A stretch of DNA of 64,000 bases from an uncultured Poribacteria bacterium. Its GTDB lineage: Bacteria; Poribacteria; WGA-4E; WGA-3G. The stretch is taken from the NCBI GenBank assembly GCA_951812525.1, contig OX638316.1:3776506-3840505 (forward strand), in the 5' to 3' direction. A program made the position numbers and the translations under genes. Below, piece after piece: positions 1,566 to 44,575 of the stretch. A model generated the notes under the pieces. The model was not told the DNA's origin. It made no database searches and saw only the letters and a list, made by a program, of their open reading frames with translations. The first letter of the stretch is position 1; each line of letters starts with the position of its first letter.

Positions 1566-2447
1566 TCACTTATGGCAAATCAAACATGGCTCCTCATCAT
1601 CTTCATCATCAAGTACCTCAGTGAGGGTTTCAGCTGCGGTAAAGATTTGCATCAGAGTTTGATTCGGTTTGGTCATTTTCTTCTCCGCTATTGCTTTTTT
1701 CTTATCTTCTATTGCTTTTTCAGTATTTGCTTTGATCTCTGCTATCCGTTCTGGTTTTGACAATTCTTCTAGGCTTTCACCCTGACACCATGTGAACAGT
1801 TCTCCAGTCTTTGAGTGTGGATTGGGTTTTTCGTATTCCTTAGCGAGTTCAAAGAGATCGGGGTGCTGCTCCAATAGCCCTACCCACTCGGATTTACGTT
1901 GGAAGAAACAGAAGTAGCACCCAGAACGCGTCCGCCAATTATAATAGTCAGGTAAACCGACACCACTTTCTTCCAGAATTCGGTAGACACCCTCTTTGGT
2001 GATGCCATCTTCTTTGAAGGGGTATTTGGGTTCAATGTTATGAAGCGAGGAGATTTTTGGAGGTTTATAGCCGACACGATCTTCGTCGGCACGGATAGCT
2101 ATGTAGTGATAAGCTCTGTCTTTGCCGACATATTCCTCAAACGGTTTAATTTTTAGGTCTACAGTACACCAGCGTACTTGCGAGGATGGAAGCAGGCCTT
2201 TGTATAATGTTAGCCAATGATCGAAATCTCGATTCTTGTTGGGGTCAGGATCCATGTTGAGACGAACAATCGGTTTGCCGAGAAATGCCTCTAACTTATT
2301 CAAAAACTCATAAGTCTCCGGCAATTCCTTACCAGTATCGGAAAAGAAGTATTCCATCTCAGGCACTCTGTCCCGCATGTAGACAGCGAGCGCAGAACTG
2401 TCTTTGCCTCCAGAGAGGCCGAGCAGATGGCGGACCTTTTGTTCCAT
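1566..2447 (-). CDS. sspD: PAPS-reductase-fold sulfur-insertion protein (SspD/DndC-like)
   Basis: A 293-residue adenine nucleotide alpha-hydrolase of the PAPS reductase family. The PP-loop SGGKDS is at residues 12-17. Cysteines at C94 (RWCT) and in GCYFC (C177, C180) are candidate Fe-S cluster ligands, as in DndC. The C-terminus ends in an extra CLICHK pair. In Dnd and Ssp systems this enzyme activates the DNA backbone phosphate with ATP and mediates sulfur transfer. AGGAGG stands just before the ATG. It sits between the SspC-like ATPase and the DUF262-HNH gene on one strand, which favours SspD over a metabolic CysH. Assignment to SspD rather than DndC rests on the DUF4007 gene next door and the absence of DndD/DndE. 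Confidence 0.82.
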   Translation of the reverse strand: MEQKVRHLLGLSGGKDSSALAVYMRDRVPEMEYFFSDTGKELPETYEFLNKLEAFLGKPIVRLNMDPDPNKNRDFDHWLTLYKGLLPSSQVRWCTVDLKIKPFEEYVGKDRAYHYIAIRADEDRVGYKPPKISSLHNIEPKYPFKEDGITKEGVYRILEESGVGLPDYYNWRTRSGCYFCFFQRKSEWVGLLEQHPDLFELAKEYEKPNPHSKTGELFTWCQGESLEELSKPERIAEIKANTEKAIEDKKKAIAEKKMTKPNQTLMQIFTAAETLTEVLDDEDDEEPCLICHK

Positions 2448-25542: not shown

Positions 25543-27474
25543 ATGCAATTTCTGAATCCTGCCGCGTTTTATCTGTTAGGTGTAATCCCAATCATAGTGC
25601 TACTTCATTTCCTGAAGTTGCGCCGCTACAGCTACCTTGTTCCGAGCATCATACATTGGCTATCCACTGACGAAGATCGGAGAGCCAATGTCCCGTTCCA
25701 ACGACTTCGGAACCTACTCCTTCCACTTTTACAGGTGCTTTTTTTGCTACTCCTTACGTTTAGTGTAGCGCGCCCTGTCTTGCGTAGACCTGGATTCATA
25801 CCCGGAAAGGCGATTATCATTGTTGACAACTCTGCGAGTATGTCGTCAAAGGAAATGGGACAAACGCGTCTTTCCCTCGCAAAGCAGGCTGCACTGGCGC
25901 AGATTCAGCAAATTTCTCCAGGCGGTGGGATGATGCTCATGACGACACAAGCTGCGGTTCCCACCGGTTCCGGGGAAGGGGCAGACACCTATATCCAACA
26001 AGCGTTTACAACCGATACCGAGCAACTCCGCATCGCGATAGAAAATATCTCCTCAACCCACGCACCGCGCAATCTTCGTCCTGTTTTTGATGCTGTAACG
26101 CGCTATGCCGACTCGCCGCAGGATACTGTTTTCTTTATCAGTGATACTTTTGAAGACCTGCCGAATATATCCCAGTCGCTCCATAAAGTCGCAGTAGGCG
26201 GAGATGCCGAGAATGTTGGTATCGTTCTACTCAGCGTTGATAGCATAGAAGACAGGTATGAAGTGCTGGTTCGCATCCAAAATTTCACAGATACCACCAG
26301 AGAATTCAAGGTGCAATTGGCGGTGGAAAACTCGCCACTTGATGACAGAGACGTATCTATTCCACCAGCAGAAACCAAATCAGTTCTGTTTTCGGGCAAT
26401 CCGAGCGGTTTAGAAGGAAAGGTTATCAGCGTACATCTTGGAATAGAGGACGATTTTCCGCTCGATAACGCTGCCTCGGCAATTCTGTCGGGTGTTTCAC
26501 CCTTGCGGATCCTACTTATCAGCGACAATCAGAAATCGTTACTGCCTGAGCTGTTGCGCACGTACGGGAAACATGTGGAGTTGGGTATGGTTGATCCAGC
26601 AGATTATCACGGGACTGGCGATGCGGATGTAGCAATTTTTGATGGCGGCACCGTCGCTGGACGTGAGGCTTTTGGTAGTTTCTCCGAGACTGATGCCAGG
26701 ACACATCTGGTCTTTATCAATCCGGGCAGCAATCTACCCTTCATGCAAGGAGATACTTCTTCTGTAGAAACCAATAACGGACTTACACGCGTTGTCAAAA
26801 CAGACGATTCGCATCCACTCATGGCGGGTGTATCCCTACAAGGGTTGCAAGTGCGTGAATCTATGTATCGGAACCTACCACTTTGGGGATATTCTCTTGT
26901 TGAAACGGAGAAGGGTTCATTGATATGGCTCGGCACTGAAGCGGATACGCGATTCCTTGTTTTCGAGTTTGACGCATTTAATCCAGAGATCTCTTCCTTC
27001 GCAGTGACAATACCAACGGGACCACTGTTTGTCTATCAGTGCTTGTCGTGGCTTGAGGCAGGAACCGCCACGTTTCAACCCATTGTGTTGCAAGAAGCGA
27101 GGACTCGGCACGCTTTTCAGGCGGGGGAACAGGTAATCATCGCACTAAAAAACAGGGATGCACCGTTACACGTGCAAAAACCTGATGAAACGGTGGTCGC
27201 ACTGAACAGTTCGATATTCACTGGAACGGATCAGATAGGTGTCTACACGCTCTTTGCTGATGATGGTAGGGAATTGGAACGCTTCACAGTTAATCTGCTT
27301 GACCCCGCAGAATCCGCACTTTCACATTCTAGGATAATACAAGAGGAAGAAACATCGGCAGCATTGGAGACCAACTTGCAACCAATAGCACAGGAAGTGT
27401 GGCGTTTCCCAGCGATGCTGGCGTTTGGTGTTTTACTTATTGAGTGGTGGTTTTACCATCGAGACAGATTATAA
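25543..27474 (+). CDS. BatA-type vWA-domain membrane protein
   Basis: A 643-residue inner-membrane protein. It starts with the aerotolerance/BatA N-terminal motif FLNPAAFYLLGVIPIIVLLH, followed by a second membrane segment (LLLPLLQVLFLLLLTFSVAR). A von Willebrand A domain then begins at AIIIVDNSASMSS, with the MIDAS motif DxSxS. The C-terminus has a final membrane helix (FPAMLAFGVLLIEWWF). Such proteins usually work with a MoxR ATPase and DUF58 protein; neither is present here. The gene ends just before a strong terminator. Confidence 0.85.
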   Translation: MQFLNPAAFYLLGVIPIIVLLHFLKLRRYSYLVPSIIHWLSTDEDRRANVPFQRLRNLLLPLLQVLFLLLLTFSVARPVLRRPGFIPGKAIIIVDNSASMSSKEMGQTRLSLAKQAALAQIQQISPGGGMMLMTTQAAVPTGSGEGADTYIQQAFTTDTEQLRIAIENISSTHAPRNLRPVFDAVTRYADSPQDTVFFISDTFEDLPNISQSLHKVAVGGDAENVGIVLLSVDSIEDRYEVLVRIQNFTDTTREFKVQLAVENSPLDDRDVSIPPAETKSVLFSGNPSGLEGKVISVHLGIEDDFPLDNAASAILSGVSPLRILLISDNQKSLLPELLRTYGKHVELGMVDPADYHGTGDADVAIFDGGTVAGREAFGSFSETDARTHLVFINPGSNLPFMQGDTSSVETNNGLTRVVKTDDSHPLMAGVSLQGLQVRESMYRNLPLWGYSLVETEKGSLIWLGTEADTRFLVFEFDAFNPEISSFAVTIPTGPLFVYQCLSWLEAGTATFQPIVLQEARTRHAFQAGEQVIIALKNRDAPLHVQKPDETVVALNSSIFTGTDQIGVYTLFADDGRELERFTVNLLDPAESALSHSRIIQEEETSAALETNLQPIAQEVWRFPAMLAFGVLLIEWWFYHRDRL

Positions 27475-27637: not shown

Positions 27638-29476
27638 TCAATTATTTATTGCACTAAGAATCTTCTGAAGTAACTGGGCTTTCGTCATCACTCCATTGAG
27701 ACGGGGTCCAACCACCTCTCCATCTTTGAATATAAGGTAAGCCGGACGTCCTCTAACCTGAAATTCGCGGATTATTCTTTGATTATCATCCATATCATAC
27801 TTCGCTACAGCAAATGTATTTCGGTGCTCTGAGGCAATTTGGGCGACAACTGGCGCCATTCTTTGACAGCTCGGTCACCAGTCGGTATAAAACTCGACCA
27901 CGACAGGTACATCTGATTGGAGGACGAGTGAATTAAATGTCGCATCGCTAACCTCAAAGGGGACACCAGAGGTCTTGTCTTCGGTAGTGAAGGTAATCTT
28001 GAGATTGGTTTCGTTACCGGCTACATCGCTAACTTTCCCTGCGATGACATAAGTGGCCCCGTTGTCAAGTTCTCTACCTCTAACCAGTTCGAGTGTGCCT
28101 TTCTGGCCTTCAACTTTGCCAAGCCAACCGGCATTGACACCTGCTGCGGTTCGCAATACGATATTGCCACTCACGTCTTCACTGAACTCGATTTCGATTC
28201 GCGCGCTGGTGTTAATCGCTTCAGGGTCAATGCTTTTGTCGCCATCTCTGACAGTGCCACCTGTAATCCTGGGTGCATCGGTGTCAGGTGTAGCAACGGT
28301 ATAAGTGAGTGTTTGGCTTCCATCCGCCCAAGTGATAGTCAGTGAGAGCGGACCTGGATCAAAGGGACCTGTAATTCTCACCTTCCTTGCAATGACTTGA
28401 GCAGTTCCAGTGCTCACTGTAAGGTCGTTTGGACGTTTGTCAAAGGTCAGGGTAATGGTATCGTCCACAGCAAGTTCCGCACCGCTTGTTGGACTTGCGC
28501 TAACGAACGCTACAGGCGGTTTGATAGTATAGTCGAGCGTTTGCGTGCCATCCGCCCAAGTGATAGTTAATGAAAGATCACCCGGATCAAAGGGACCCGC
28601 AATTGTCACGGCTTTACCAAAGGTTGTAGCAGTACCTGTATTGACTGTAACATCGTCGGGTGCCTCATCAAAAGTGACAGTAATAGTAGCATTGGGAGCA
28701 AGTTCCGCACCGCTTGCTGGACTTGCGCTAACGAACATCACAGGAGGTCTAATAGTGTAGGTAAGAGTCGCGACTCCATCTGCCCAAGCAAAGGTTAATG
28801 CGAGCGGACCTGGATCAAAGGGACCTGTGATTACCACAGTTTTGTCAGTAACTGTAGCAGTGCCTGGACTCACAGTAACGTCCTCAGGCGTGTTATCAAA
28901 AGTAAGGGTGATAGTCCCATCCACATCAATCTGGGAGTTGCTGACTGGATCGGTTCCAACAAGCGACGCGGGCGGTCTGATGGTATAGTTGAGTGTTTCT
29001 GTTCCATCTGTCCAGGTGACTGTCAAAGCGAGAGAACCCGGATCGAAGGGACCCGTGATTGTCACAGTCTCGTCAGTGATTATGGCAGTGCCTGTGCTAA
29101 CTGTAATATCACCTGGCGTGTTGTCGAAAGTAAGAGTAATAGTCGCGTTGACATCAAGCTGCGAATCAATCCCTGGATTTGCGCTAACGAACGCCACCGG
29201 TGGGCGGACGGTTTTACCCAAATTCCCTGCAACGAGCGTCAAATCAAGGATATTTACCATGCCGTCCGCGTTAACATCTGGATTTGTGCTCTGACCTTCG
29301 GTGGGTATTGCTCCGAAACGCGTGGCAATAAGCGTCAGATCAAGAATATTTACCACGCCGTCACCATTGACATCAGATGCACTCAGAGTGTCAAGATTGG
29401 CATCTTGGGCATAACTTGCTGGCATGAGTAGGAGTGTTAGACTCAGCGCAAGCAATAAGCAAATTATTTTTTTCAT
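27638..29476 (-). CDS. Exported dockerin / Ig-repeat / thioredoxin protein with in-frame TGA (Sec)
   Basis: Read through one TGA at 27877-27875, this is a 612-residue exported protein. In order it has a signal peptide (LLALSLTLLLMPASYAQ), a dockerin-type pair (DVNGDGVVNILDLTLIA and DVNADGMVNILDLTLVA), four tandem Ig-like repeats of about 75 residues that each contain TGPFDPG or AGPFDPG, a Big_5-like domain, and a thioredoxin domain. The thioredoxin active site reads VVEFYTDW-TGA-PSCQRMAPVV: the TGA (residue 534) replaces the first cysteine of WCxxC, and the second cysteine is present. After it the fold continues to the end (FQVRGRPAYLIFKDGEVVG with the cis-proline). A selenocysteine thioredoxin is the best reading; a nonsense mutation is the alternative. 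It follows the second TGA-containing gene by 37 bases. Confidence 0.8.
27842..27879 (-). promoter_or_regulatory. Candidate bacterial SECIS hairpin over the TGA of the first Sec-thioredoxin
   Basis: GGUGAC (27879-27874, containing the UGA) can pair with GUCGCC (27847-27842), and AGCUG (27871-27867) with CAGUU (27852-27848), leaving a 14-base loop. A competing 4-bp GGCG/CGCC stem places its loop about 22 bases after the UGA. Pairing was done by eye; energies were not computed. Confidence 0.4.
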
Positions 29477-29513
29477 CTATTTTCCTCTTGTGTATTAGGT
29501 TGTGATCAATATG

Positions 29514-30134
29514 CTACTCGGTTTCCTCAGTTCCTAAGATTTCGAGAATGTTTTGCACCAATTGGGTACTGGGCATTGCTCCAGCAAACCTACCTGCAAT
29601 CTCTCCATCGTTGAATACAATATAGGTAGGCGTTGCAAAAATGAGGTATTCAGTTGTTTTCTCACGTTCGCTGTTTACATCCAGTTTGACGAAACTGAAA
29701 GTTTCGCGGTATTCCAGTGCTACTGCGGCAACCACCGGTCGCATCAGTATACAAAATGGTCAGGTATCGTCTTTAAATTCTACAACAATAGGCAGTTCAG
29801 AACCCAAAACGATCTCGTCGAAATTTGCATCCGTGACCTCAAAAGGGATGCCAGATTTTCTGCCAAAATGACTCCCAACCAGTGTTAAGTCAAGGATATT
29901 CACGGTCCCGTCACCATTGACATCTGGATTTGGCGTTTGATTTACAGGGGGTGTCTCACCAAAGTGTGATGCGATGAACGCCATATCGAGGATATTCACA
30001 ACGCCGTCAGCATTAATATCAGAAACACTCAGGGAGTCAAAACCCACATCTTGTGTGTGTCCCAGGGTCAGGAGGGTCAGTGTCAGCGTTGCTGTTAGCA
30101 AAAAACAAATCAATTTTCGCATAAGTTTTTCCAT
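29514..30134 (-). CDS. Exported dockerin-thioredoxin protein with in-frame TGA (Sec)
   Basis: Read through one TGA at 29762-29760, this is a 206-residue exported protein (202 if the second ATG at 30122 is used, which gives the more typical signal peptide MRKLICFLLTATLTLTLLTL). A dockerin-type pair follows (DINADGVVNILDMAFIA and DVNGDGTVNILDLTLVG). The C-terminal thioredoxin domain reads VVEFKDDT-TGA-PFCILMRPVV, so the TGA stands where the first CxxC cysteine belongs and the second cysteine is present. The fold continues with VKLDVNSE and the cis-proline in FATPTYIVFNDGEIAG. The layout U-P-x-C-x-x-M-x-P-V-V is identical to the neighbouring gene. It starts 6 bases after the URO-D/MtaA-like gene. 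Confidence 0.8.
29729..29762 (-). promoter_or_regulatory. Candidate bacterial SECIS hairpin over the TGA of the second Sec-thioredoxin
   Basis: UGACCA (29762-29757, starting with the UGA) can pair with UGGUUG (29734-29729), and inside it UGUAU (29753-29749) with AUGCG (29744-29740) around a 4-base loop ACUG. The pairing includes several G-U pairs and was found by eye. Confidence 0.4.
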
Positions 30135-30140
30135 AAGTGA

Positions 30141-31181
30141 TTATGCTTCCGCACGGTGCCATTCTTGTACGGCTTCTGGGATTGCTTGGAGGTTCTCGAT
30201 AGTTGTCTGTAGGGGGATGGCACACTCCGGTCCAATCAGTGGAACCCCTGCCTCAAGATTTTTCGTAACTTCCGCTTTAACATCGTCGGGTTCTTTGGCA
30301 AACAACGTTTCGGGGTTGTTGATGTTTCCAACAAGGGCAATCCGCTTTTCCACGATGTCCATAGATTCCTGCGGTTCATTTTTCGAGTCGTAATGAAACG
30401 CTGACATCCCGGTTTGCGCGATGTACTCCATCCTATCAACCGTGCGTCCGCAGATATGCAGAATCAGGGGGATAGGGATACGTTCAACAAATTCGATATG
30501 GAGATCCCGAAGGTAACGCTGGTAGTATTCCCCACTGACCAAATCGCCTGTAGCGTGATCTGGAAGTGTGAGTGCATCTGCACCTGCTTCGATTTGTGCC
30601 ACACCAAATTGAACAGTCGCCTCCTTCATCCGATCGAGTGCGAGTTTCGTTTTGCCTGGATCGTCAAGAGATAGCAACAAGAAGGGTTCGACACCGAAAC
30701 AGTGATAGCCGAGCGACCAAGGTCCCATCGTTTTCCCAATTACAGCGACTTCATCACCATATTCCTTCTTTAGGATTTTAATCGCTTCAAGTACACATTG
30801 GGTATCTGGATGCGTCAAGAAATCGTCCGGGATCGCGATGTCGTCAGCATCTTCCCAGATCGGTTCGCGCATCCGAACAGTGGGCCAGTTGTCCTTCTGT
30901 TCCCATTGGATCTGGCATCCGAGCGCACTCGATTCTTGAATAATCGTGAAAACCGGCATGATAGTGTCGAATCCGAGTTCAGTGTATCCTGTCGCAGCGA
31001 GGCGCGCCATGAGTTCCGGCTCTCGATTCGCTTGTGGAAAGGGGGCATCGACGAGATCCATCAGTTCAACAGTCGCAACGGATGTAGGATTGCAAACCGG
31101 GGTACGGTCGGTCGGTTCATTGTTAAGAGCGGCAAGTACACGTTCACGACCTGTCATTGATTTGGGAGTTTGGTTTTCCAT
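30141..31181 (-). CDS. URO-D/MtaA-family methyltransferase-like protein
   Basis: A 346-residue TIM-barrel protein of the uroporphyrinogen decarboxylase superfamily. It starts GRERVLAALNNEPTDRTPV and contains NPTSVATVELMD and DTIMPVFTIIQESSALGC. It carries the HxC...C zinc site of the MtaA/CmuA methylcobamide-methyltransferase branch (LILHICGRT and GPECAIPL), unlike true HemE. It probably moves a methyl group between a corrinoid protein and a thiol, substrate unknown. GAGGGT precedes the ATG. The two Sec-thioredoxin genes follow on the same strand, the first after 6 bases. Confidence 0.82.
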   Translation of the reverse strand: MENQTPKSMTGRERVLAALNNEPTDRTPVCNPTSVATVELMDLVDAPFPQANREPELMARLAATGYTELGFDTIMPVFTIIQESSALGCQIQWEQKDNWPTVRMREPIWEDADDIAIPDDFLTHPDTQCVLEAIKILKKEYGDEVAVIGKTMGPWSLGYHCFGVEPFLLLSLDDPGKTKLALDRMKEATVQFGVAQIEAGADALTLPDHATGDLVSGEYYQRYLRDLHIEFVERIPIPLILHICGRTVDRMEYIAQTGMSAFHYDSKNEPQESMDIVEKRIALVGNINNPETLFAKEPDDVKAEVTKNLEAGVPLIGPECAIPLQTTIENLQAIPEAVQEWHRAEA

Positions 31182-32597: not shown

Positions 32598-33521
32598 TTA
32601 GCGGCGTGCTAACTTGCCGCCGTATTGCTTTTCATAGATGTACTTGTAAGCTTGTTCAGAGAGTCTTCGCAAAATATAGGTGCGCCGATTTCTCCATGTA
32701 GAGAAGGATTGCCACCGATTTTTCCGATTTGTTTTCGTCCTGTCCTCGATCATTCCAATAAAAACATAAGGTCTTGGTTTGCCTTGCGGATCGCGGAGCA
32801 CTAAGATCCCACCATCTCCAACCAATCCATAAACTGTTCCTGTTTTGTTGTAAACCGCAACGGATGAAGGGATGTATGTGTGTTTGAAGATATAGTCCCC
32901 ATTTTTGAGTTTGAGGTAGTACTTCATCTTATCGGAATAAGGGAGTCTCCGCTTCCACAGTTGTAGACAAAACATACTTAGGTCCCGTGCGGAGGTCATG
33001 TTTCTATAGGTTCGTCCGCCTTGTGGGATGTATTCAACGACGCGGGTGTGTTTAAAATACGGATAGTTAGCTTGAAGTATGCGGTTCACACGTTTCGGTC
33101 CGCCAAGCAGTCGGATAAAATAATTCGTCGATGAATTTGAACTCCATTGAATCATGGCGCGCAGATGTCCTTTATTTACCGAAGTGTGCGTTTTACGTCC
33201 ATACCTCACTTCATGGAAATAAGCGAGCATGACAAAATTCTTGATGAGAGAGGCTGCCATCATTTGCCGATTTTCGTTAATGGATACCAACTTTTTATTT
33301 TTGGATATATCGTAGACAACGAAGCTTGTTCGGTCAGTTGTAGACAAAATGCGACGACTCCGCTGGCGTTTGATGTGTTTTTCAAAATTAGCTTCCAGAG
33401 GGGAGTCGATTGAACTTTGACTATTACGAGATGTTACCGCCGACAGCGTAAATATCGGAAGCAATAACCCGATGCTACAACAGATTAATAATGTTCTTAA
33501 TTTTTGTATGCTTCCGAACAT
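32598..33521 (-). CDS. Class A beta-lactamase-fold serine hydrolase (exported)
   Basis: A 307-residue exported or anchored protein of the Beta-lactamase2 family. An N-terminal hydrophobic signal (LLICCSIGLLLPIFTLSAV) is followed by the three active-site motifs: SxxK in AASLIKNF, SxN in QWSSNSSTN, and KTG in YNKTGTVYGLVGDGGILV. It may be a beta-lactamase or a peptidoglycan D,D-peptidase-like enzyme. There is no clear omega-loop glutamate of the ExxLN type, so strong beta-lactamase activity is uncertain. AAGGAAAGGA precedes the ATG. Confidence 0.82.
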   Translation of the reverse strand: MFGSIQKLRTLLICCSIGLLLPIFTLSAVTSRNSQSSIDSPLEANFEKHIKRQRSRRILSTTDRTSFVVYDISKNKKLVSINENRQMMAASLIKNFVMLAYFHEVRYGRKTHTSVNKGHLRAMIQWSSNSSTNYFIRLLGGPKRVNRILQANYPYFKHTRVVEYIPQGGRTYRNMTSARDLSMFCLQLWKRRLPYSDKMKYYLKLKNGDYIFKHTYIPSSVAVYNKTGTVYGLVGDGGILVLRDPQGKPRPYVFIGMIEDRTKTNRKNRWQSFSTWRNRRTYILRRLSEQAYKYIYEKQYGGKLARR

Positions 33522-42793: not shown

Positions 42794-43807
42794 TTAAATT
42801 TCGCCGTTGCTTTCGCGAGTCATAAGGGTCAGGAAATCATCAACCCGATCGATTGCGCCTTGTGCGCGGTCACGTGTCGATGCGTCCGCCTCCTCTTCAG
42901 CGAGCCATTGTCTCCGTTGTGGAAGCCACTCGTTTTGCAGATAGTCGAGTTGATTCAGAAAGTGCGGGTCTTCAGTTACGCTGACGAAATACTCAATCAC
43001 ACCCAGCAATCCGTATTTTCGATTTATCTCCATATCGTCTAATTCATCTACCATTTGCAAGAAAAGATGCTGATTTCGGTCCTGTCGCGCTTGCGCAACT
43101 TCACGCGAGGATTCAGTCAAGAGCTTGTCAACGAATTCTTGTTTGGAATTAATCCAGCGCGGTAGGTTCCGTACGTAGTCTTCTAGGTCAAAGTTGCCAC
43201 GTTGGAGTGCGAAATAGGAGTGGATGTGAATATTTCGGAAGAAAGCCGTATAACCCACGTTTGGGTCCATAGTGTCAGCATCATAGAGTACCTGATTTTC
43301 GACCCTGTTGTAGAGCAGTTTAAAGTCCTCTGCTGTAAGATTCATCGGTTTTAGGTGTGCGAGGACAACGGCTGTCGCGGCTTGTACGAAGTCGGGTTCA
43401 AAGTCGTACATCCCCAATATGTTCTCCGTAATAACTGCACCGGATTCATGATGGACTTTGCCGTGGAGGTCATGCTTATCGTAAAGTTCTGTAACGACGT
43501 TCTGACCGGCGGGGGTAAGGGTTTCGTTTAACCAGAACCCGTTATGATCGAGGATACGTTGTCCGTTGTCGTCGGTCAAGATAACTCCGTCATATCGCTT
43601 GGTGATGTCGTGCAGGGTGCCAGCGACTTCCAGCAACTTCACATCACCGCCTTCCCGATTACCGAGTTCCATGCTCAGTGCACGCACACGCATGGTGTGG
43701 TTCCATGTATAATGTCGCCACTGAAAACCGACACGGTTATGCTCCCAGAGCGCGAAGGTGTCGTTGACCAGTGTTTCCAATTCATTCAAGACTTGGGCGT
43801 AGTTCAT
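42794..43807 (-). CDS. HD-domain protein
   Basis: A 337-residue metal-dependent phosphohydrolase-like protein. The HD motif is at H66-D67 (VAGTLHDITKRYDGVIL), with an earlier histidine in TWNHTMRVRALS. A further conserved HD-type region is YDKHDLHGKVHHESG. The C-terminal third is helical and charged. It may hydrolyse a nucleotide or other phosphoester; the substrate is not evident. The next gene upstream on this strand, truA, ends 24 bases before its start. Confidence 0.75.
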   Translation of the reverse strand: MNYAQVLNELETLVNDTFALWEHNRVGFQWRHYTWNHTMRVRALSMELGNREGGDVKLLEVAGTLHDITKRYDGVILTDDNGQRILDHNGFWLNETLTPAGQNVVTELYDKHDLHGKVHHESGAVITENILGMYDFEPDFVQAATAVVLAHLKPMNLTAEDFKLLYNRVENQVLYDADTMDPNVGYTAFFRNIHIHSYFALQRGNFDLEDYVRNLPRWINSKQEFVDKLLTESSREVAQARQDRNQHLFLQMVDELDDMEINRKYGLLGVIEYFVSVTEDPHFLNQLDYLQNEWLPQRRQWLAEEEADASTRDRAQGAIDRVDDFLTLMTRESNGEI

Positions 43808-43831: not shown

Positions 43832-44575
43832 TCAAGCGTTGTTATATCGCACTCGGATGAGTGATAATCCGTGTGCGGGTACAGATGTTCCAGCTACGGC
43901 TCTATCTTTTGCTTCTAAAATGCGGTGTAAGTGTGCTTCAGCATCGTCGTTCATCGTCCATTTCAGGATAGTACCGACAATGGCGCGGACCATTCCTCGC
44001 AGAAACGAATCGGCTTCGATTTCAAAATAGATGTTTGAGGTGTCTTTCCAACAGCATATCTCGTAAATTTCACAGATCGGATTTATCCGATCGCTTCCAG
44101 TCTTTTGGAAAGAAGAAAAATCGTGCTTGCCCACCAGAATTTGGCATAGTTGGTTGGATCGTGGCACGTCAATTGCTGCCGGGAAGAAATAACTCGTCTG
44201 TCGTGAAAGTGCAGTCGGATATTCTCGACTCAAAATCGTATACCGGTATCGCCGACTTATAGCACTGAAACGGGAGTGAAACTCGGCGGACACTTCTGTC
44301 GCAGAACAGACAACAATATCCCTAGGCAAAGTAGCATTGAGCCCTTTCTGGAATGCAACAACTGGCATCTGTGAATCCGTGTGAAAGTTAGCGACTTGTC
44401 CCTCCGCATGGACACCGGTATCAGTCCTCCCTGCCCCAATAATCTGTATCTGGGTTTTGGTTAACTGTGCCAAGGTGTCCTCAATTGTGCCTTGGATTGT
44501 TGGCAAATTCGGTTGCTTCTGCCATCCGTGATAGTTGCTACCATCATACTCTAACACAAGTTTGATATTTCGCAT
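43832..44575 (-). CDS. truA: tRNA pseudouridine(38-40) synthase TruA
   Basis: A 247-residue pseudouridine synthase. It starts RNIKLVLEYDGSNYHGWQKQ and has the catalytic aspartate in GAGRTDTGVHAEGQVANF and the SFLRGMVRAIVGTI segment near the C-terminus. It modifies uridines 38-40 in the tRNA anticodon stem-loop. The length and motifs are standard. Confidence 0.95.
   Translation of the reverse strand: MRNIKLVLEYDGSNYHGWQKQPNLPTIQGTIEDTLAQLTKTQIQIIGAGRTDTGVHAEGQVANFHTDSQMPVVAFQKGLNATLPRDIVVCSATEVSAEFHSRFSAISRRYRYTILSREYPTALSRQTSYFFPAAIDVPRSNQLCQILVGKHDFSSFQKTGSDRINPICEIYEICCWKDTSNIYFEIEADSFLRGMVRAIVGTILKWTMNDDAEAHLHRILEAKDRAVAGTSVPAHGLSLIRVRYNNA

Follow-up and report, generated by a model that had tools for sequence, protein, structure and literature searches.

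Two neighboring genes of a Poribacteria genome, here called genes A and B, very probably encode exported thioredoxins that carry selenocysteine (Sec) at the first position of the active site, a reading of both Sec insertion and export drawn from the sequence. This type of selenoprotein is known, and the variant of it seen here is well supported by sequence comparison. The new element is its predicted extracytoplasmic modular context: dockerin repeats in both proteins, Ig-like repeats in one of them, and a conserved tandem arrangement. The genes lie in a window of 64,000 nucleotides, the whole stretch of DNA analyzed here. Their host genome is a single 5.06-Mb contig assigned to Candidatus Poribacteria, and the bacterium is probably sponge-associated. 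Current annotation rules would cut each gene at its TGA; the catalytic half would therefore be lost, and the selenothioredoxins hidden.

Two genes with an internal TGA

The features of the locus, together with a second gene pair discussed below, are as follows.

29514–30134, minus strand: gene A, 206 aa; predicted signal peptide, dockerin pair, thioredoxin; active site UPFC
27638–29476, minus strand: gene B, 612 aa; predicted signal peptide, dockerin pair, Ig-like repeats, thioredoxin; active site UPSC
29760–29762, minus strand: putative Sec TGA of gene A, residue 125
27875–27877, minus strand: putative Sec TGA of gene B, residue 534
29547–29840, minus strand: thioredoxin domain of gene A, residues 99–196; Pfam PF00085, with AlphaFold2 fold and Foldseek matches
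27659–27955, minus strand: thioredoxin domain of gene B, residues 508–606; Pfam PF00085
29877–30023, minus strand: Dockerin_1 pair of gene A, residues 38–86
29222–29377, minus strand: Dockerin_1 pair of gene B, residues 34–85
29721–29749, minus strand: predicted SECIS of gene A; outer stem UACUG/CAGUA, inner 6-bp stem GCGACC/GGUUGC (29742–29728), apical loop GGU
27842–27857, minus strand: predicted SECIS of gene B; stem GGCG-C/G-CGCC, apical loop AGUU; weak alone, kept across 36 homologues
30141–31181, minus strand: conserved upstream neighbor, a URO-D/methyltransferase-like gene that ends 6 bp ahead of gene A
25543–27474, plus strand: BatA/VWA protein gene; convergent downstream neighbor, conserved across the selenothioredoxin family
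43832–44575, minus strand: truA
42794–43807, minus strand: in-frame HD-domain neighbor of truA

The original prediction placed the two TGA codons at 27877–27875 and 29762–29760 of the minus strand, and these coordinates proved correct on re-reading. Its count of a single in-frame TGA per gene is right for internal codons but not overall, as gene B also terminates in TGA (27640–27638), an ordinary stop. The second ATG, at 30122, is probably the true start of gene A, as it is in the closest relatives.

Both TGAs fall inside a Pfam thioredoxin domain (E-values of 1.2e-22 for gene B and 4.4e-17 for gene A; 80.3 and 62.4 bits for the two proteins against a cut-off of 23.5), precisely at the first active-site cysteine, with thioredoxin halves on either side. 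The frame that stays open past each TGA completes the fold, and the UxxC motif is accompanied by the cis-proline (R-P-A-Y and T-P-T-Y), again as had been predicted. An AlphaFold2 model of gene A adopts the thioredoxin fold with a mean pLDDT of 85, and U125 opens the active-site helix; in Foldseek, the nearest structures to this model are ordinary thioredoxins, with a target-normalized TM of about 0.9. Against the TrxA equivalog model TIGR01068, the proteins score 77.1 and 59.5 bits, and their isolated domains 82.0 and 61.7. All four values fall below the curated cut-off of 96.8, so neither protein is classed as a cytosolic TrxA. Nor does either protein attain the cut-off of any thioredoxin or selenoprotein model in NCBIfam.

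The dockerins that had been claimed for both proteins are borne out, and putative signal peptides are seen in both, as claimed. Specifically, Dockerin_1 (PF00404) matches both with E-values of 5.8e-11 and 1.2e-16 (42.9 and 61.0 bits, cut-off 22.9), and Pfam finds Big_5 Ig-like domains in gene B. Dockerin_1 and Thioredoxin occur together in all full-length homologues scanned, 26 of 26 of the gene-A type and 13 of 13 of the gene-B type. Signal peptides were assessed by composition: both proteins have signal-peptide-like starts, and among the homologues whose N-terminus is intact, nearly all show a positive charge there, a hydrophobic core, and an A-x-A/T-Q-like site. The predicted signal peptide, the dockerin pair, and the thioredoxin domain are conserved, as is the locus.

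Conservation of the TGA and of the predicted SECIS hairpins

We searched 85 genomes of the phylum with a domain profile and retrieved 60 stretches. Together with loci collected earlier, these gave 103 distinct domains. In the active-site column, 91 of the 103 domains have TGA, far beyond what chance would give, and 12 have TGC or TGT, and no other column of the alignment holds a TGA, TAA, or TAG. The column thus alternates between the Sec codon and cysteine codons, with no scattered stops. In the tree, gene A and gene B sequences fall into separate, clearly resolved clades (SH-aLRT 100), and at least four Sec/Cys changes are required. Within the genus, TGA is found throughout each paralogue clade; the two TGAs were therefore inherited, not acquired independently, and the argument from "two independent nonsense mutations" has to be given up. 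The order within the tandem varies: some members of the genus have A-B, others B-A.

The gene-A clade includes three Cys forms with dockerin repeats (L099, L100, and L101). Each of them neighbors the same BatA gene, and two, L099 and L100, also neighbor the same URO-D gene. The URO-D gene is 92–97% identical across relatives and is found upstream of the locus in most of the g1–g3 stretches that extend far enough. A gene for a Beta-lactamase2-family (PF13354) protein is also present near the locus (32601–33521, minus strand).

Median dN/dS is 0.15 for gene A and 0.35 for gene B after the TGA, and 0.11 and 0.23, respectively, before it. These estimates indicate purifying selection on the sequence downstream of the TGA.

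The bacterial SECIS is a hairpin with a G-bearing apical loop located about 16–37 nt after the UGA. A SECIS-like hairpin begins approximately 20 nt past the TGA in both genes, and compensatory changes back the two, strongly for gene A and modestly for gene B. In gene A, the GGU loop begins 24 nt after the TGA, within the bacterial SECIS range; it caps a 6-bp stem, and an outer 5-bp stem lies beneath. Across 31 sequences, 95.2% of cells are paired and 22 cells have changed on both sides; none of 500 shuffles scores as high, and every slid register fails. Under a synonymous-codon null, the stem is present in 31 of 33 sequences against 8.6 expected. In gene B, the loop, AGUU, lies equally far past the TGA and is likewise closed by a stem. 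Here, 99.4% of cells are paired across 36 sequences, with five double changes at a single pair and again 0 of 500 shuffles as high, and the stem occurs in all 36 sequences against 22 expected from synonymous codons. The gene B hairpin of the window is not unusually stable alone (z 0.87; synonymous-recoding P of 0.86 for energy), so its support is comparative: it is conserved, with one covarying pair.

As a negative control, the Cys homologues lack the hairpin: they are 47% and 35% paired for the two structures, no better than shuffles, in a control set that consists mostly of a different, lipoprotein-type paralogue and includes only three gene-A orthologues. Four lipoprotein-type U homologues (group D) have neither the A nor the B hairpin, and an Rfam scan of the locus returned no known RNA family. 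In gene-A orthologues such as L045, L068, L083, and L090, the stem, read from the sequences, seems to have moved 3 nt downstream (CUGU-GGUC-ACAG), an apparent case of hairpin turnover within one orthologue group. The series of Sec and Cys orthologues at one locus, with and without the hairpin, offers a good test set for SECIS gain and decay and for the benefit that Sec brings to an exported thioredoxin.

Selenium machinery and alternative readings of the TGA

The original prediction named three findings that would refute it, namely a lack of Sec machinery, homologues with random stops elsewhere in the domain, and TGA decoded as tryptophan genome-wide; all three were looked for, and none turned up. 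The Sec machinery that the Sec reading calls for is present. The host genome harbors a tRNA-Sec gene (78.1 bits, cut-off 47), reported by ARAGORN as tRNA-SeC with anticodon tca (UCA), and selB (3.4e-100) adjoins it. Also present are selA (1.5e-178) and selD (4.6e-107), the latter with one in-frame TGA of its own, and the Sec system is thereby complete. SelB occurs in 76 of the 85 genomes of the phylum. The selD gene (L029, G000:C1:3914052-3914975) is itself a selenoprotein gene, with the motif CAGUASK. Cysteine occupies the corresponding position in the cytosolic-type thioredoxin L018 (WCGPC) and in the lipoprotein-like paralogue L020 (DWCPFC) of the same genome.

Given a tRNA that reads UGA, the residue inserted could in principle be cysteine or another standard amino acid, for example through a variant tRNA or because sulfur takes the place of scarce selenium in the Sec pathway. 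Homologues do have Cys at this column, and sequence cannot separate Sec from Cys delivered by the same tRNA. The complete set of selA, selB, and selD, the canonical tRNA-Sec, and the covarying hairpin at the SECIS position nonetheless argue for Sec, and we regard the cysteine reading as very unlikely. Less probable by far is that the genes are pseudogenes or products of sequencing error, that is, ordinary Cys thioredoxins with nonsense mutations. Automatic annotation would indeed end each gene at the TGA, and a late TAG interrupts the domain of one homologue (G051, L119), near a contig end. But the TGA recurs in 91 homologues from tens of genomes, several of them single-contig; the alignment has no other stop columns; and the covarying hairpin and the purifying selection past the TGA refute this explanation.

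The most improbable reading, one we give practically no weight, is that TGA is a sense codon for tryptophan genome-wide. Some bacterial lineages do use code 4 or 25. Here, 7 of the 46 long ORFs of the window terminate in TGA, the internal TGA aligns with Cys rather than Trp, and the tRNA-Sec reads UGA; together, these refute a tryptophan code. Finally, a variant of the Sec reading supposes that the TGA also serves as a selenium-responsive switch, such that short dockerin(-Ig) proteins would be made without selenium and the full Sec enzyme with it. Termination and Sec insertion are general competitors at UGA codons, and the dockerin and Ig modules lie wholly upstream of the TGA in both genes. 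The Cys orthologues L099–L101, however, would be unable to switch, and we consider the variant improbable, if less so than a cysteine reading.

Another TGA of the window (43834–43832, minus strand, with 345 open codons after it) was considered as a possible recoded gene and rejected: it comprises truA followed by a separate, in-frame HD-domain gene. Elsewhere in the host genome, L025 (G000:C1:2403094-2403372) is a third thioredoxin-like selenoprotein candidate, in which DWUGFC, with TGA at the first active-site cysteine, is followed by TPR repeats. Its N-terminus has a hydrophobic segment.

Putative extracytoplasmic role and known relatives

The best-supported reading is that SelB-bound Sec-tRNA(UCA) would decode the internal UGA as selenocysteine, directed by the downstream stem-loop, and that the N-terminal signal peptide would export the protein. 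The thioredoxin domain would fold with the selenolate as the attacking residue (U-x-x-C). Outside the cytoplasm, Sec would attack the substrate and the second Cys would resolve the mixed bond; the oxidized U-C pair would then be re-reduced from the cytoplasm, plausibly via a DsbD homologue, while the paired dockerin repeats would tether the enzyme to cohesin-bearing extracytoplasmic proteins. A role as an extracytoplasmic disulfide (or related thiol-type) reductase is likely, with reduction as the presumed direction. Electron supply by DsbD, suggested by the co-occurrence of a DsbD homologue (L022) in the host genome, is about evenly balanced between being right and wrong. Docking to cohesin proteins is a more tentative proposal, slightly on the doubtful side; it likewise draws on co-occurrence, as cohesin is matched 12 times in the host genome and dockerin about 74 times. 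We put forward as speculation, and as probably too ambitious, a "selenosome": two Sec-thioredoxins on an extracytoplasmic cohesin–dockerin scaffold, forming a docked redox module re-reduced by DsbD.

UxxC thioredoxins are a listed selenoprotein family (WP_010956703; PMC13188914) and, as "Trx-like 1" of GOS, are abundant in ocean metagenomes (PMC2398784). Genes A and B share with these PF00085 selenoproteins the thioredoxin fold, Sec first and the resolving Cys second, Cys homologues, and a SECIS after the UGA. They differ in that the family, as it appears in the relevant passages of PMC13188914 and PMC2398784, is a bare thioredoxin domain, whereas the products of genes A and B are predicted to be exported, fused to dockerin modules (and, in gene B, to Ig-like ones), and encoded in a conserved tandem. 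SaoT, TsoB, and the HUIPC-motif proteins (NCBIfam NF040730, NF045694, and NF047660), listed in PMC13188914, also place Sec in a thioredoxin-like fold but are other families with other motifs; of their models, only that of TsoB gives a match, a weak one (1.1e-05; 23.8 bits, where the cut-off is 805). L020, the Cys homologue that comes closest to the domain within this genome, has Cys for Sec, no SECIS-like hairpin, and a lipobox in place of the dockerin. The dockerins themselves resemble those (PF00404) of cellulosome-like and other bacterial surface proteins, with paired F-hand repeats (D-x-N-x-D-G-x-x-N-I-x-D) and cohesins in the same genome, but the enzyme joined to them in genes A and B is a redox selenoprotein instead of a glycoside hydrolase.

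The original prediction knew of no description of such a combination. It overstated the novelty, since thioredoxin selenoproteins with a UxxC site already form an established family; what stands is that, as far as the literature was searched, Poribacteria have not been described as having such proteins in exported, tandem form with dockerin/Ig fusions. That literature, from which subscription journals were mostly absent, yielded no work joining selenoprotein and Poribacteria and no relevant work joining selenoprotein and dockerin; nor did the literature searched yield anything on Poribacteria with dockerin and cohesin. SelA and SelB are enriched in sponge-symbiont genomes, in a passage of PMC5649159 that leaves the proteins they serve unmentioned. 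Genes A and B provide concrete, conserved targets for the selenium machinery of Poribacteria and link selenium redox chemistry with modular surface proteins of the dockerin type.

A contig scan with family-specific patterns recovered 34 loci, all in Poribacteria; since the patterns are specific to the selenothioredoxin family, this is no proof of absence elsewhere. No relative was found among viral contigs. Poribacteria possess a large predicted cohesin–dockerin repertoire, and several of the 12 cohesin places in the host genome (L122–L129) are in proteins that also bear dockerin. Finally, L094 (about 2186–2416, minus strand), L117, and L118 are lipoprotein-type homologues with a lipobox (..GCG) and active sites of the form UG[FVA]C, and their putative SECIS differs from both types in the window.
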